The position numbers and the translations under genes were made by a program. DNA of 64,000 nucleotides from Flavobacteriales bacterium. Lineage in GTDB: Bacteria; Bacteroidota; Bacteroidia; UBA10329. This document shows, one piece after another, positions 32,264-40,283 of this stretch (position 1 is its first letter; every line of letters starts with the position of its first letter). The DNA is taken from assembly GCA_018402015.1 (NCBI GenBank), contig JAGYJL010000002.1, forward strand, positions 1 through 64,000, written 5' to 3'. The notes under the pieces were generated by a model that saw only the letters and a list, made by a program, of their open reading frames with translations, did no database searches and was not told the origin of the DNA.

Positions 32264-33061
32264 TTAACTGTTCTTTTTGGTGCAGATGACCTGGTCTTTG
32301 TATTTGAGGTTGATGTGGGAGTATTGATCCCATCCGGTTTTGTTCAATCCTTTGTGATAGAAGAGAAGCAGCTTCTTGAATTTCTGCTCCATTTTATCTG
32401 TGTGGCCTAGAAGAATGTGATGATCGCCAACGGTTGGCACCAAGGTTAGTTCTCCATTCGGTTCTACAATGATCTGCTGGATCTGAGCTCGCCAGAATTC
32501 ATTGTTGCGGATGAAAGTTGCCAATTCGAACAGCTCATCGAGGTTCGAAATCTGTTTCAGACTATCGCTCATGTTTGCCACGTTGTAGCGTTGCATAACG
32601 TGCTGCCTATCGGTAATAAAGCCACTTGCAACAGGTACACGTGCGGTGTAGTTATCGCTTGTTGGCATGATGCCACTTCGCGGTCGATGTAAAACGATTC
32701 CCTTCTGAATTGAAAATGCGCAGAACAGGGTCGCGTTGGTAGACCTTTACGGCAAAGGTTCCACCATGCTTGGTGAACACTTCGGCACGTTTTACTGATG
32801 GATTGGCGAAAATATGACGCCTGTACACTGCAATAGGAATGGAACTAATTGGTTTGCCAACGAGACTATCACCTTTGCTCCAGATTACTTGGGCACGCCG
32901 CCTTTGGTAACAAAGAAATTTCCGTTGCTATGGTCTACCTGAATGTTGAGTTTGGAACACGGCAGCTGACATCTGATTCGAGTGCTGAAAGCCAGAGAAA
33001 CGAACAGCCCGACATCACGGCTATCAATATCAACGCTATGTTCAATATCCGCTTCGATCAT
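32264..33061 (-). CDS. ftsQ: FtsQ/DivIB-type division protein (2-3 frameshifts)
   Basis: The C-terminal ~130 residues are intact (FELATFIRNNEFWRAQIQQI, GDHHILLG). Upstream, other frames give KRILNIALILIAVMSG + LFVSLAFS as the single TM helix, QVDHSNGNFFVTKGD, RRHIFANPSVKRAEVFTK and HGGTFAVKVYQRDPVLRIFN, the POTRA/FtsQ-like part. ATG 33061 overlaps the end of murC. About 265 codons, normal for Bacteroidota FtsQ. Joins FtsL at the divisome. It should be essential, so the breaks are probably sequence errors. Confidence 0.8.
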
Positions 33062-34422
33062 GACGCCAGTTTCGGAATGGTGCAACCACCGATCGGATAT
33101 CTCCTGCGCCCATGGTGTAAGCAACACATCCAACTCAGCTACCGAAAGCGCATCTACAGCAGCCTGCTTACTTACCAGCTCTTTACTGGGTTCGATATGC
33201 GCTCCAATAATGCGCTTGATGTAACTCCCGGAATTGCTTCTTTCGCGTGCTGGGTGATTCCGAGAAGCGTTACCTCGTCCAACTGCGAAAGGCTGTTGGG
33301 TAAACTCGTTCATGCGATCCTGTGTGTGACTGAACAAGTGAGGTTGGAAAATCCTTTCACTTTTCGGCCTGGGAATAACTCGCGTACAGAACCGATGCAT
33401 GCTGAAATTTCGGTTGGATGATGCGCGTAATCATCGATATAAACCAACTTGTCGGTGTTGATGTGTACTTCGAATCTGCGCTTTACACCCTTGTAGGTAG
33501 CAAAACCAACGCGAAGTTCATCTTCGGTCAGTCCGAATTGATCTACAGCTGCAAATGCTGCCACTGCGTTTTCCAAGTTGTGCAACCCAGGCATTCCGAA
33601 CGTTATGCTACGGTAAGTTGCCCGTGGCGAATGCAGGTTGAATTGGTACTTACCATTTTCAATGGAAAGACCGGATGTATAGTAATCGCTCTTCTCGCTA
33701 AGTGAATAGGTTAACGTGGATCTGTCTGAATGCTCGAAAGGAAGCCCGAAACGATAGATGAGTTTTCCATTCGGGGTAATTCGTTCGGTGAAATCGATGA
33801 AGGATTTCAGCATTTCATCGGATGATCCGTAGATATCGAGATGGTCGGCATCAACAGAAGTTACAATAGCCACTTCTGGCGATAAGGTGAGGAATGAACG
33901 GTCGAACTCATCGGCCTCAACCACCATCAGATCGCTGCTTTTGGAAGTAAGCAGATTGGTGTTGTAGTTGGAACTGATTCCGCCTAGGAACGCGTTACAA
34001 TCGTGAGAAGAACAACGCAGTAAATGCGCTGCTATGGAACTGGTAGTTGTTTTGCCATGCGTTCCGGCTACGGCAATGGTTCGGTACGCTCTGGAAAGTT
34101 CTCCCAAAACCTCAGAACGCTTCAGTACGTCAAAACGGTTGTTGCGGAAGAACATCAACTCCGAATGATCTTTTGGTACTGCTGGAGTGTAGATTACCAA
34201 GGTGGTTTCGGCATCAAGAAAAGCATCAGCAATTGCGTTTGCGTCATCTTGATAATGAATTGCCATTCCTGCATTTTCCAACTCCTTGGTGAGTTCGGTC
34301 GAAACGCGGTCGTAACCGCCAACACGCTTACCTAGCTGCGCAAAATAGCGGGCCAGCGCGCTCATGCCAATGCCTCCGATCCCTATCAGATATACCGCTT
34401 GTATGTGGTTCAATCCTTTCAT
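33042..34422 (-). CDS. murC: UDP-N-acetylmuramate-L-alanine ligase (3' part frame-broken)
   Basis: Adds the first stem amino acid in cytoplasmic peptidoglycan synthesis. N-terminal UDP-binding GIGGIGMSALAR (14-25), P-loop GTHGKTTT at 120-127, EADEFDRSFL, and DDYAHHPTEI in the C-terminal ligase domain. The main frame ends at 33310. Homology resumes in another frame (FSRTQDRMNEF, SKQAAVDALSVAELDVLLT, AGDI) to TGA 33042-33044, overlapping ftsQ by 20 bp. It overlaps murG by 4 bp (ATGA). Confidence 0.88.
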
Positions 34423-35525
34423 GCTTTGGTAGCGATCTTTAGGATTTCACGGGCAATTACTTCATCTGCATTTGGCAAAGCCAGTTTAAGGATGTTGCTG
34501 CTGAGTTTTTCTCTCTCGGCAGAGTCGTTCAATAAGCGAAGCGCTTCGTTGCAGGCAAGTTCTCCAGCTTTACTGTCGGGAACAAGTATGGCAGCATCGT
34601 GGTCAACCAACGCCTGCGCATTTTTGGTCTGGTGATCTTCTGCTGCAAACGGAAATGGAACCAGAACCGATGGTTTACCAACGATACATAGCTCTGAAAT
34701 GGAACTAGCGCCAGCGCGCGATAGCACAACATCTGCCACAGCATAGGCCTGATCCATGGTGTAAATGAAATCGGATACGAAGAAGTTGGTGGCGTTTGCA
34801 TCAACCACAGCTTTTTTGGCTTCCTCAATAAAGAGTTTTCCAGTTTGCCAAACCACTTGTATATCGGCAGCTTTAAAAGCTTCGATGTGAGATTTGACCG
34901 CCAAGTTGATGGAGCGTGCGCCCAGGCTTCCACCGATCACCAAGAGGGTTTTCTTGTTGGGGTCGAGGTTGAAGGTTTTGATGCCTTCTTGACGTTTGCC
35001 TTCCAGATTCAAAATGTCCTGCCGTACCGGATTTCCTGTTCGGATGATGACATTCTTTGGGAAGAATTTCTCCATGCCATCGTATGCCACGCATACTTTG
35101 CTCGCCTTGTTTCCAAGTAGTTTATTGGTTATTCCTGCGTAGGAATTCTGCTCTTGGATAACCGTTGGAATACGCGCGCTATTGGCAGCGTACATTACAG
35201 GTCCGCTTGCAAAACCACCCACGCCTACAACAACATTCGGTTGGAAATTGCGGATGATCTTCAACGATTTTAAAAGGCTTCCGATCAACTTGAATGGGAA
35301 GGCCAGGTTTTTGACCATGTTGCTGCGGTTGATTCCAGCTATGTTGAGCCCGATGATCTCGTATCCGGCAGCAGGAACTTTCTCCATCTCCATTTTACCA
35401 AGCGCTCCTACAAAAAGGATCTCTACATCCGATCGCAGTTTTTTCAGCGCGTTGGCAATGGCAATGGCAGGGAAGATGTGTCCGCCCGTTCCGCCTCCTG
35501 ATATGATGACCCGAAGCTTAGACAT
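34419..35525 (-). CDS. murG: Lipid II synthase MurG (GlcNAc transferase)
   Basis: 368 residues, GT28. GGGTGGHIFPA at 10-20 is the glycine-rich loop binding the lipid I pyrophosphate. GVGGFASGPVM, IQEQNSYAG and the C-terminal nucleotide-binding ALVLSRAGASSISEL-type block follow. It transfers GlcNAc to lipid I on the inner face of the cytoplasmic membrane. The start overlaps the 3' end of ftsW by 8 bp and its stop overlaps murC by 4 bp, implying translational coupling. Confidence 0.95.
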   Translation of the reverse strand: MSKLRVIISGGGTGGHIFPAIAIANALKKLRSDVEILFVGALGKMEMEKVPAAGYEIIGLNIAGINRSNMVKNLAFPFKLIGSLLKSLKIIRNFQPNVVVGVGGFASGPVMYAANSARIPTVIQEQNSYAGITNKLLGNKASKVCVAYDGMEKFFPKNVIIRTGNPVRQDILNLEGKRQEGIKTFNLDPNKKTLLVIGGSLGARSINLAVKSHIEAFKAADIQVVWQTGKLFIEEAKKAVVDANATNFFVSDFIYTMDQAYAVADVVLSRAGASSISELCIVGKPSVLVPFPFAAEDHQTKNAQALVDHDAAILVPDSKAGELACNEALRLLNDSAEREKLSSNILKLALPNADEVIAREILKIATKA

Positions 35526-36690
35526 GTGCCAATTCGTTTTCAGGTTCCTTTACTGCGCGACTCACGCTGAGTATCATTCCAATTGCAATAGAAGTGAACC
35601 AAATGGAGGTTCCCCCCATACTTATAAGCGGAAGCGGCTGCCCCGTTACCGGAAAGAGATTCACGGCCACGGCCATGTTTATCAATGCTTGGAATACCAA
35701 AGCAAAACAAACCCCGAAGGCCAGTAACGTACCGAAGGTGCTTGTGCCTTTGTGTGCAATGCGTAAACCGCGGAAAAGCAAAATGAGATATAGGAATAGA
35801 ATACCCATTCCGCCAACTATTCCCCATTCTTCGATGATGATTGCAAAGATGAAATCTGAATATGGGTGTGGAATAAAATTCCGTTGTGAACTGTTGCCTG
35901 GACCAACACCCGCAATACCGCCATTGGCAATGGCGATCTTTGCCTGTTCGGTCTGGTAGTTGGCATCGGCTCGTTCTGGAGTTTCCTCGTTTGATATGTA
36001 GGTTTCCAATCGGGCTTTCCATGTTCCGAAACGCGGTAGTACTTTCTCTACTGGCACAGCAAAAGAAAGGAGCACAACAAAGACTCCCGCTAAGGCAATT
36101 GCTCCCACAAGACCTGCCAGGTATTTGAATCGAACTCTACCAATATAGAGGATGATGAGTGACGAAGTGAATAGCACGGCCGAAGTGGAGAAGTTGGCTG
36201 GCAAAATGAGTGCGCAGACCAATAGAACAGGCCAAATGATCTGGAGGAAGCCTTCCTTGAAATCGTCCATATCTTCCTGACGTTTGGAAAGGACGCGTGC
36301 CAAATACGCGATCAAAGCAACTTTGGCCAGGTCGGAAGTTTGGAATGAAAGATTGATGATCGGTAATGTCAACCAACGGCTTGCTTCATTACGCGATGTT
36401 CCTGCAATGAGCGTAATGGCAAGTAGTGGAATAGATATCCAAATAAGGATTTGCGCTACGCGTGAGAAATACGTGTACGGTACCTTATGGATGGCGTACA
36501 TCATGCCCCAACCAAGCACAATAATGGAGAAGTGTTTAAGAAGATAGTATTCGGTATTTCCGCCTTGATAACGATACGCAAGCGTACCAGTAGAACTGTA
36601 AACTGCCATTGCAGAAACAAGGGAAAGGAGGAACACCACGGCCCAAATGACCATGTCCCCTTCCAGATATTTTCTCAACAGTGAGTTCAT
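35518..36690 (-). CDS. ftsW: FtsW, SEDS-family septal peptidoglycan polymerase
   Basis: 390 residues with about ten hydrophobic segments starting near residue 12. The SEDS signatures are visible: ANGGIAGVGPGNSSQRNFIPHPYSDFIFAIIIEEWG in two consecutive blocks, and the C-terminal ISMGGTSIWFTSIAIGMILSVSR. It works with the class B PBP encoded further upstream in the cluster (41740). It is separated from the next upstream dcw gene by the inverted-repeat-bounded unit at 36694-37134. Confidence 0.95.
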   Translation of the reverse strand: MNSLLRKYLEGDMVIWAVVFLLSLVSAMAVYSSTGTLAYRYQGGNTEYYLLKHFSIIVLGWGMMYAIHKVPYTYFSRVAQILIWISIPLLAITLIAGTSRNEASRWLTLPIINLSFQTSDLAKVALIAYLARVLSKRQEDMDDFKEGFLQIIWPVLLVCALILPANFSTSAVLFTSSLIILYIGRVRFKYLAGLVGAIALAGVFVVLLSFAVPVEKVLPRFGTWKARLETYISNEETPERADANYQTEQAKIAIANGGIAGVGPGNSSQRNFIPHPYSDFIFAIIIEEWGIVGGMGILFLYLILLFRGLRIAHKGTSTFGTLLAFGVCFALVFQALINMAVAVNLFPVTGQPLPLISMGGTSIWFTSIAIGMILSVSRAVKEPENELAHV

Positions 36691-36693
36691 TTT

Positions 36694-37134
36694 TTAATTA
36701 GCAATTAGGAATGATGAATTAGGAATTGCCTCCTGATTCAGTTCCTTTCTTGTAGATGGTTTTAGTTATGGTTGATAGTATTCTCAAATTCTCTTCGCAA
36801 TCATGAAGCATAGAATCCGCCTGTTTTTCGTTCAAATAATCCGTGGCTTTCATTAAACGGAGCCAATAGCGGGTTTCTCGGGCCTCCTTGTAAGCAATGC
36901 TCATTTTTGATCCAAAGTCCTTTCTGGTCTGGCCTCCAATTGCTTCTTCCACATTAGCACCTATTGAGGTTCCGCTTCTGAGCAATTGTTTCGATAACAC
37001 GTATTCCTTTCTTTCTTCAGTTAGATGCCGATATAGGTTCACCACCCGAATTGCAAACTCGAAGCTTTTATTCTGAATGATGTTGTCCTCTTTCGCCATT
37101 TATTTCTAATTCCTCATTTCTAATTGGCAATTAA
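36694..37134. mobile_element. Inverted-repeat-bounded unit carrying a four-helix-bundle gene
   Basis: About 32-bp imperfect inverted repeats bound the unit. The left end (36694-36725) reads TTAATTAGCAATTAGGAATG.., and the reverse complement of the right end (37103-37134) reads TTAATTGCCAATTAGAAATG... About 28 of 32 positions agree. Only the gene at 36719-37099 lies inside. This is consistent with a small non-autonomous mobile unit inserted between the MurD-like domain gene and ftsW; no transposase is present. Confidence 0.6.
36719..37099 (-). CDS. Four helix bundle protein (23S rRNA IVS-type, S23 family)
   Basis: 126 residues, all helical. FEFAIRVVNLYRHL, LSKQLLRSGTSIGANVEEA, and KMSIAYKEARETRYWLRLM are the conserved blocks of the S23/four-helix-bundle family, often encoded in intervening sequences of 23S rRNA genes and as free-standing genes in Bacteroidota. 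It forms pentamer-like bundles in solved relatives; its cellular role is unclear. Unusual here because it sits inside the dcw cluster between inverted repeats. Confidence 0.88.
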   Translation of the reverse strand: MAKEDNIIQNKSFEFAIRVVNLYRHLTEERKEYVLSKQLLRSGTSIGANVEEAIGGQTRKDFGSKMSIAYKEARETRYWLRLMKATDYLNEKQADSMLHDCEENLRILSTITKTIYKKGTESGGNS

Positions 37135-37679
37135 TTCTTGGATTCAATAAAGGTTTTAACAGCCTTGCTGAACTGGTTTCCTCGATCTTCATAACTATCA
37201 AAAAGATCGTGGCTGGAACATGCTGGAGAAAGGATGATCTTATCGCCAGGTTGTGCCAAAGCAGTTGCCGCTTTCACGGCTTCATCGGCAGAGCTTGCGC
37301 CAACTATCACATCTGCAAAACCAAGGAAGGTTTTGAAAACACGGCTATTCTCTCGCCCAAGGCAAACAATACCTCTAACCTTGTCTGCCACAAGTTCTTT
37401 CAACATGCTGTAATCCTGTCCGTCCTGTAGACCACCTACAATCCACACAGCGGTACCTTGCAACCTCTCCAAGGAATACCATGTAAGATCCACGTTGGTG
37501 GCCTTACTATCGTTTATGAATTCAATGTCGTTCCACTTTCCGATCAGCTCTTGCCGATGTCGGGTACTCTGCACATCCGAAACGCTCTCTTCAATGATCT
37601 GCTTCCTCAACTCAAGCAAACTATTGAACATCTCCTGATCGGCAGAAACGGTGGGCTTATTCCAGGTTTTATCTTTCAT
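37131..37679 (-). CDS. Free-standing MurD C-terminal (ligase) domain, paralogue of the adjacent murD
   Basis: 182 residues from ATG 37679 (the open frame extends to 37799, overlapping murD). It aligns along its whole length with the last ~165 residues of the neighbouring MurD. It keeps HRQE, FINDSKATN (in E. coli MurD this loop holds D-Glu contacts), VWIVGGLQDGQDYS, and SPACSSHDLFDSYEDRGNQF. The UDP-binding and ATP P-loop domains are absent, so it cannot be a MurD on its own. The frame is intact, and the sequence has diverged well beyond a recent duplication while keeping the key residues, which suggests selection. It lies 22 bp downstream of murD. Confidence 0.85.
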   Translation of the reverse strand: MKDKTWNKPTVSADQEMFNSLLELRKQIIEESVSDVQSTRHRQELIGKWNDIEFINDSKATNVDLTWYSLERLQGTAVWIVGGLQDGQDYSMLKELVADKVRGIVCLGRENSRVFKTFLGFADVIVGASSADEAVKAATALAQPGDKIILSPACSSHDLFDSYEDRGNQFSKAVKTFIESKN

Positions 37680-37701: not shown

Positions 37702-39033
37702 TTAAAGTGAACGGACAGCCGTTTTGAATTTTCTCCCTCGGTCTTCGTAGTTCTCAAAAAGGTCGAAGCTGGCGCAAGCGGGAGATAGGAGAACAGCATC
37801 TCCTTTTTTGCCTAGATAGTAGCTGGTCTTTACTGCTTCTTCGGCCGATTGTGTGTCAACTATGGTCTCAACGATTCCCTCAAAGGCCTTATGGATCTTC
37901 TCGTTGTCGGTACCAAGGCAGATAATGGCTTTTACTTTAGCACGGACCAGATCTTCTACCATGCTGTAATCGTTGCCTTTGTCAACACCTCCTACTATCC
38001 AGATAACGGGTTGGTTCATGCACTCAAGTGCATACCATGTAGAGTTGATGTTGGTGGCTTTACTGTCGTTTATGAACTCGATACCCTGAACCTTGCCAAC
38101 GGATTCGAGTCGGTGTTCAACAGCGCTGAAATCGCTCAGACTTTCTCGGACAGTTTCTTTTCGAAGCTCCAAGAGGCGCCCCACAATTCCTGCGGCCATT
38201 GAGTTGTAGGAATTGTGTTTGCCTTGTAGTGCAAGTTCGTGTATGGACATGGTTAGATTTGAGTTATTGAGGTTTATGTTGAGATTTTCGTTTTCTAGGT
38301 AAGCACCTTCGGCTACTGTTCCGTTAAGTGTGAACGGGTAACGTTTAGCCCTGATCGAATCGGTCAATGAACTGGCTATGTTCAAGTCGTCTGAGCAGTA
38401 GATGAAAGCGTCATCCTCTGTTTGATTCTGTGCTATTCGGAATTTCGCAGCGATGTACTTATCCATGCTTCCGTAGCGGTCTAAGTGGTCTGGTGTTATG
38501 TTCAAAAGCACAGCTATGTTTATTCGGCTATCGAACATTCCGTCCAGTTGGAAACTGCTCAGTTCTAGAACCAGATAGTCGAATTCTGTGTCTGCCACTT
38601 GCCAAGCAAGGCTTTTGCCCACGTTACCGGCCAATCCAGCGTTGAGTCCGCCTTTGGTTAGCATGTGGTGCGTGAGTAACGTAGTGGTGGTTTTGCCGTT
38701 GGTTCCAGTAATGCCGATGGTTTTGGCGTTTGTGTACTGCAAGCCGAATTCAATTTCAGATATAACTGGAATGCCTTTTCCTCGAAGCGTTTGTACGAGT
38801 GGCGCAGCATCTGGAATGCCAGGACTTTTCACTACCAGGTCGGCATTCAGAATTTTCCTTTCCGAGTGTTTTCCGGTTTCAAATTCCACTCCCCATTCAG
38901 TAAGATGTTGAGCATACTTCTCCTTCAGGTTTCCCTTATCTGAAAGGAAAATCTCAAAGCCTTTTTTCTGACCCAAGTAAGCTGCGCCAGCACCGCTTTC
39001 GCCTCCACCCAATATGACCAGACGTTCTGCCAT
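37702..39033 (-). CDS. murD: UDP-N-acetylmuramoyl-L-alanine-D-glutamate ligase
   Basis: 443 residues from ATG 39033 ([16 protein letters not shown]); the longer open frame to 39090 lies within mraY and is not used. Domains: N-terminal UDP-binding, P-loop [26 protein letters not shown], then the C-terminal ligase domain with HRLESVG, FINDSKATN and LSPACASFDLF. Adds D-glutamate to UDP-MurNAc-L-Ala. The start shares one base with the mraY stop (TAATG). Confidence 0.96.
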   Translation of the reverse strand: MAERLVILGGGESGAGAAYLGQKKGFEIFLSDKGNLKEKYAQHLTEWGVEFETGKHSERKILNADLVVKSPGIPDAAPLVQTLRGKGIPVISEIEFGLQYTNAKTIGITGTNGKTTTTLLTHHMLTKGGLNAGLAGNVGKSLAWQVADTEFDYLVLELSSFQLDGMFDSRINIAVLLNITPDHLDRYGSMDKYIAAKFRIAQNQTEDDAFIYCSDDLNIASSLTDSIRAKRYPFTLNGTVAEGAYLENENLNINLNNSNLTMSIHELALQGKHNSYNSMAAGIVGRLLELRKETVRESLSDFSAVEHRLESVGKVQGIEFINDSKATNINSTWYALECMNQPVIWIVGGVDKGNDYSMVEDLVRAKVKAIICLGTDNEKIHKAFEGIVETIVDTQSAEEAVKTSYYLGKKGDAVLLSPACASFDLFENYEDRGRKFKTAVRSL

Positions 39034-40283
39034 TACCTGAGTTTGAGGGTTACCACGGTTAGTACTGCGAGCATGATTCCAACGATCCAAAATCGGCCTA
39101 CGATCTTGGCTTCGTGCATACCTTTTTTCTGAAAGTGATGATGTAATGGAGACATCAAGAAGATCCTGCGTCCTTCTCCGAATTTCTTCTTCGTGTATTT
39201 GAAGTAGCTCACTTGCATCACCACGGAGAGGTTTTCCATGAGGAAAATGCCACAGAGAATAGGAATCAGAAGTTCTTTTCTGATTGCTAGCGCGAAGACA
39301 GCGATGATGCCGCCAAGTGCCAAGCTACCCGTATCGCCCATAAAAACCTGAGCTGGGTATTGATTGTACCACAAGAAGCCAACACAAGAACCAACAAACG
39401 CGGCAATGAATATTACCAGTTCGCCCGAACCAGGTATGTACATGATATTGAGGTAATCGGCAAAAATGATGTTACCGGACACGTAAGCAAGAATGCCCAA
39501 GGTTACGCCTGCTATAGCAGAAGTTCCTGTTGCAAGTCCGTCCAGACCATCGGTTAGATTAGCTCCGTTGGAAACTGCCGTTACGATGAAGATCACAATT
39601 GGGATGAACACCAACCAACCCCAATCCGTTGCTTTTTCGCCCAAGAAGAATAAGAGCGAGCTGTAGTCGAATTCGTTGTCTTTTACAAACGGAATTGTTG
39701 TTACCAATGAGTGCTCTGCGTCTCCGTAAACAGGAGTTCGTTGCAGTTCAATGGTTTTTCCATTTATCACTGTTTCAATCGTTTCGCCACCACGTACCAG
39801 TCGCTCTTTTATAGCTACATCTTCGTTAAAATAGAGTGTGCAGGCAACGATAATCCCGATACCGATCTGGCCCATTACCTTGAATCTTCCGGCCAAACCT
39901 TCCTTGTCTCGCTTGAATACTTTGATGTAATCGTCTGCAAAACCAATGAGGCCGAGCCATACCGTGGATATGAGCATTAATATCACGTACACATTATGAA
40001 GCTGCGCGAAGAGGAGAGTTGGAATTAGAATGGAGGAAAGAATGATGATTCCGCCCATGGTCGGTGTTCCCTGCTTGGCTACTTGACCCGCAAGGTCCAG
40101 GTCTCGGACAATCTCACCTACTTGCTTCAGTTGTAGGTATTGGATCACCTTCTTTCCAATAAGCATTGAAATGATCAGAGAAGTGATGATACTTGCAGCT
40201 GCTCGGAATGAGATGTACTGGAATACTCCCGCTCCTGGCAGTTGATAATGTGTTTCAAGGAAATCGAACAGATAGTACAACAT
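39033..40283 (-). CDS. mraY: Phospho-MurNAc-pentapeptide transferase (lipid I synthase)
   Basis: 416 residues with about ten TM helices. [11 protein letters not shown], the DD pair in [21 protein letters not shown] with its catalytic Asp, and [23 protein letters not shown] are the conserved blocks, followed by [12 protein letters not shown]. It transfers phospho-MurNAc-pentapeptide to undecaprenyl phosphate. The insert at about 175-215 ([15 protein letters not shown]..) is typical of the longer Bacteroidota form. One-base overlap with murE and with murD. Confidence 0.96.

Follow-up and report, generated by a model that had tools for sequence, protein, structure and literature searches.

The dcw cluster is among the best-studied bacterial operons, and the version of it carried by the stretch of DNA analysed here (64,000 nucleotides from a Flavobacteriales bacterium; hereafter the window) raises a question that its familiar layout would not lead one to ask: what is the C-terminal domain of MurD doing there as a gene of its own, behind a complete murD? 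The analysis below identifies the product as a real, conserved and apparently undescribed protein. Most likely it assists the late cytoplasmic steps of peptidoglycan synthesis in an accessory, non-catalytic capacity, as a partner or regulator rather than an enzyme.

The gene, its product and its neighbors

The gene, which we call MurD-C, occupies positions 37131 to 37679 of the minus strand (ATG at 37679, stop at 37131), where an open frame encodes 182 amino acids. Only 22 bp separate its start from the stop codon of full-length murD (37702-39030, minus strand). The murD frame opens at 39090, with a likely start (MAERLV) at 39030, and its C-terminal domain is intact, D-Glu lysine included. Upstream of murD in the same operon and on the same strand lies mraY (39033-40283). 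On the other side, ftsW (35518-36690, minus strand) directly follows MurD-C in relatives. In the window, a gene for a four-helix-bundle protein (23S rRNA IVP; 36719-37099, minus strand), identified from profile matches, is inserted between the two. Among the genomes read, it is found at this site in the window's genome only and thus stands outside the conserved unit. It looks like a mobile passenger; inverted repeats were looked for at its flanks and not found, and only short AT-rich direct repeats were seen. In one relative (L038) a similar gene sits between ftsQ and ftsA instead. Elsewhere in the window, at about 32700-33420 of the minus strand, murC in its 3' part and ftsQ in its 5' part carry several frameshifts and stops relative to L038. 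With both genes presumed essential, these breaks probably mark a low-quality stretch of the assembly.

The MurD-C protein matches Pfam Mur_ligase_C (PF02875) with an E-value of 1.4e-9 and 39.3 bits, above the gathering cut-off of 28.4. Against the murD model TIGR01087, the match is confined to positions 287-440 of 441, and its 138 bits lie below the cut-off of 212. A sequence search with the family profile of the stand-alone protein against solved MurDs returns the C-terminal domain only, and an AlphaFold model (pLDDT 81.7) is matched by Foldseek to the same domain (E 1.5e-11). The N-terminal UDP-binding and central ATP-binding domains are missing; the protein is a Mur_ligase_C domain protein derived from MurD, not a MurD ligase. 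In these respects the initial annotation, which had described an intact, MurD-C-only protein of this length directly downstream of full murD and devoid of UDP- or ATP-binding domains, is borne out by the open frame, the short intergenic gap, the domain matches and the fold. It had also called the divergence from the neighboring MurD large and conservation largely limited to functional loops. Identity to that MurD is 52% over 157 residues and is spread along the domain, so the emphasis on loops was overstated.

Distribution, selection and origin

MurD-C was found at the same place in all eight same-genus genomes with data (the window's and seven of its eight relatives), the copies being 67-85% identical to that of the window; in the eighth relative, whose genome is 70% complete, nothing matched, not even murD. 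Short frames matching the MurD C-domain only also follow murD in many families outside the genus. The search proposed in the initial annotation, for such proteins next to murD, yielded them in 19 of 78 sampled Bacteroidia families, a count from which second matches of about 20-28 bits, near murE or in long frames, were left out. The gene is near-universal in sampled families f1, f9, f11 and f37 and absent from most families of the class, which makes it dispensable at class level. The inspected named loci of Pedobacter, Mucilaginibacter, Fluviicola, Lutibacter, Mariniphaga and Labilibaculum have full murD only. Among named records only L038 carries the gene; it is titled Chryseobacterium gleum isolate TrE-03may19-215, a doubtful name for a metagenome assembly. 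Among 88 genomes of Bacteroidota outside Bacteroidia, none has it; the only one with two partial matches (G411) looks like a case of murD split between contigs.

Where both genes occur, the order is mraY-murD-[MurD-C]-ftsW-murG on one strand, mostly with short gaps or overlaps. Two genomes depart from it. In G049 a break in the cluster parts murD from MurD-C, which remains 6 bp before ftsW. In G261 a 177-residue MurD-C-like protein alone fills the canonical place of murD between mraY and ftsW. No canonical murD was found in this genome; away from the mraY/ftsW site (L205, 2264-4894) it encodes an 876-amino-acid protein in which a MurL-like epimerase domain is fused to a divergent MurD; this protein matches NF041275 with an E-value of 2.9e-76, below that family's cut-off. 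This combination suggests an L-Glu route of peptidoglycan synthesis, and the very divergent 177-residue protein could be a separate remnant of murD. Taken together, the two genomes suggest that MurD-C function is independent of adjacency to murD. As the gene stays by ftsW with murD elsewhere, its partner need not be MurD. The suggestion that MurD-C is a regulator or decoy subunit of MurD keeps its place among the candidates, with MurD no longer the obligatory partner. Two further arrangements were seen. At one locus (L203, in G289), a diverged tandem pair of MurD-C-only genes separates murD from ftsW. Families f4, f42 and f46 have, away from the dcw cluster, another MurD-C-only paralogue that is more degenerate (L131 3783-4322, L128 3602-4144, L169 2117-2656, L125 3695-4333 and L133 3871-4488); in f4 and f46 it adjoins a gene resembling an aldehyde dehydrogenase.

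Within the genus, dN/dS where computable is about 0.02-0.10 for MurD-C and 0.03-0.06 for murD, values that are rough with dS near saturation, yet far below 1 (for MurD-C, pN is 0.04-0.25 and pS 0.63-0.93). MurD-C is under purifying selection, with a conserved position. The initial annotation had argued that the gene is neither a fresh duplication nor a dying copy, naming a full-length second MurD in relatives or a dN/dS near 1 as observations that would speak against it. Relatives carry the same short protein, and together with gene order and the dN/dS values this rules out a local truncation or a pseudogene. Across families, the per-site rate of MurD-C is about double that of MurD (mean distance 2.18 versus 0.99).

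How often the gene arose bears on its history rather than on its function. In a full tree, 65 stand-alone copies group apart from 76 of 77 MurD domains (UFBoot 95), the exception being the very divergent MurD fused to MurL. A balanced set, run under a site-mixture model, unites 26 of 28 copies in a single clade (96/87) and leaves the two from f11 among the MurDs; a tree with all 28 together is 5.3 lnL better and is not rejected (AU p 0.62). For most copies, one clade apart from MurD points to an old partial duplication of murD, with f11 possibly excepted and long branches limiting the certainty of this sequence-based reading. That several partial duplications of murD occurred independently is unlikely in our judgment. 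It would fit the f11 copies, which besides their position in that tree score higher with the MurD profile than with the stand-alone one; it would also fit the outcome of forcing the window-genus copies together with their own MurDs, which costs 40.7 lnL and is disfavored without being formally rejected (AU p 0.072). The remaining dcw copies in the sample, however, cluster with good support, the concern about long branches notwithstanding, and the window copy is nearer to those of f4 and f46 (55-58% identity) than to its own MurD. In f11 (L120, L177, L178, L179) it is the full-length MurD that has diverged, and the C-only protein resembles MurD; an independent origin or a replacement of murD may lie behind this.

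Residues kept and lost

In E. coli MurD, the C-domain spans residues 299-437, with K348, T321, S415 and F422 at the D-Glu site (PMC3527612); Arg302, within hinge loop 294-304, is described as the handle for rotation of the C-domain (PMC4816537). Using this numbering, we compared 59 dcw-type stand-alone copies with 76 MurDs. The hinge motif HRQE (H301, R302 and E304; 37548-37559, minus strand) keeps its His and Glu in 59/59 copies and its Arg in 34. The INDSKATN loop (N316 to T321; 37494-37517, minus strand) is largely kept at N (58/59), S (55/59) and D (50/59), less so at T321 (40/59) and K319 (35/59). In the SPACSSHDLFDSYEDRG loop (37179-37229, minus strand), in which the window copy retains the equivalents of S415 and F/Y422, P411 is present in 59 copies, G426 in 58, R425 in 55, S415 and a Tyr at F422 in 51 each, and D417 in 30. 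The window copy has the equivalents of H301, R302, K319 and T321. The initial annotation had listed the second and third of these loops, both present as it described; a loop that it did not mention is altered. Where MurD has GGxDKGNDY, the window protein has GGLQDGQDY (37410-37436, minus strand), with Asp86 (codon 37422-37424) at the position of the D-Glu lysine. The K348 equivalent is a lysine in 8/59 stand-alone copies versus 75/76 MurDs, and the G and N that follow it are also lost. The hinge and outer face stay, then, while the loop that grips the amino acid decays.

These counts bear on what the domain could still do. One possibility is a sensor: with D-Glu, a nucleotide or a UDP-MurNAc-peptide bound in its pocket, the protein would inform MurD or the divisome of precursor levels. 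The retention of S415, Y422 and T321 equivalents in most copies counts in favor of such ligand binding and against an accessory protein that acts by contact alone; the NDS loop and the K or R found at the K348 position in family f27 lean the same way. On the other hand, no single residue has taken over this position: the window's genus shows D, A, P or E there, and the replacements elsewhere are scattered too. There is also no central domain to supply the rest of an ATP site. The idea of a D-Glu-binding sensor, raised at the outset, is weakened by the rarity of the lysine, and we regard the sensing role in its wider form as improbable.

Much the same chance, we feel, attaches to a domain that competes with or replaces the mobile C-domain of MurD on the MurD core. 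Its derivation from MurD, its location beside murD and the hinge residues H301 and E304, which rank with the best preserved, would all be in keeping with such a part. Yet co-resident MurDs retain a complete C-domain of their own, R302 and K319 are lost in about 40% of copies, the gene persists by ftsW where murD is elsewhere, and evolutionary rates of MurD-C and MurD show no covariation across 16 families. The initial annotation had also proposed a partner in a split ligase. In the window's genome, Mur_ligase_M cores and Mur_ligase_C matches number seven each; six cores have a C-domain match, and the seventh, without a listed one, is an 827-amino-acid frame, probably a MurF-alanine racemase fusion of the type known from Bacteroidota. 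No obvious core in this genome awaits a C-domain in trans, and a search there for an orphan core to complete a split ligase found none. With the C-domain of MurD complete and R302 and K319 so often lost, the split-ligase idea has lost ground.

That the gene is a functionless leftover of the murD duplication, as its fast evolution and patchy presence might suggest, is very hard to believe given the strong purifying selection, the intact frames and the tight operon position in 19 families.

Proposed role and relation to known systems

An accessory role is the best reading of the observed conservation, gene order, selection, residue losses and fold. A tandem duplication early within class Bacteroidia would have copied the C-terminal segment of murD, and the copy, though lost many times, would have been passed on as a gene of its own between murD and ftsW. 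Its product would be a folded MurD C-domain that no longer works as an amino-acid-adding domain, since most families show a decayed D-Glu lysine loop and many lack the catalytic Arg/Lys, with the hinge and the SPAC/RG face held by purifying selection. The retained face may dock on the cytoplasmic machinery for peptidoglycan precursors; our guess at the partner is either the core of MurD or the assembly of MurG and FtsW, whose genes come next downstream. Docking might tune or tether precursor supply, the direction of the effect being again a guess. Of the four proteins tested for rate covariation in the 16 families, MurG was favored (partial Mantel r 0.43, p 0.008), a signal that is weak and not robust, dropping to r 0.24 without family f11. 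Covariation with MurG rather than MurD, patchy presence and a rate about twice that of MurD are points against the explanation as a whole, namely an old duplication giving rise to a non-catalytic subunit that acts by protein contact, and we give it about an even chance of being right. More tentatively, and with the balance tilting somewhat against it, one could envision that an ex-MurD domain serves in a quarter of sampled Bacteroidia families as an undescribed dcw scaffold or regulator, linking the synthesis of precursors in the cytoplasm with the membrane stage of MurG/FtsW and persisting even where canonical murD has left the cluster.

A conserved extra gene at this site in about a quarter of the sampled families may reveal an unrecognized point of control or assembly in peptidoglycan precursor supply. 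The gene is likely to be annotated as "hypothetical" or "partial murD". It also illustrates cleanly how nature can turn one domain of an enzyme into a protein in its own right, one that apparently has no catalytic role. The open literature that we searched holds no description of a stand-alone MurD-C protein, in agreement with the initial annotation, which knew of no described role. The closest relative in kind is the MurD C-terminal domain itself (PF02875; TIGR01087 287-440), which shares fold, sequence and most loops with the stand-alone protein. The latter differs in lacking the UDP and ATP domains, in its decayed D-Glu lysine loop and in forming its own clade. The MurT/GatD amidotransferase exemplifies a Mur-ligase-type protein working with a partner protein. 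Its structure (6h5e) gives a weak fold match to MurD-C; MurT, however, combines a ligase core with a C-domain and has a catalytic partner, whereas the window gene encodes a C-domain only, with no adjacent amidase. The alternative L-Glu route of Xanthomonas (NF041275; PMC8788868) likewise departs from standard MurD, and a MurL-MurD fusion occurs in one of the genomes studied here. That route relies on a full ligase, MurD2, together with an epimerase, MurL, and the stand-alone C-domain is neither. Finally, although a MurD-C-only protein is absent from the report in question, the proposal that Mur ligases of Bordetella assemble on MurG as their scaffold (PMC6420597) provides a precedent for the physical assembly of cytoplasmic Mur enzymes.
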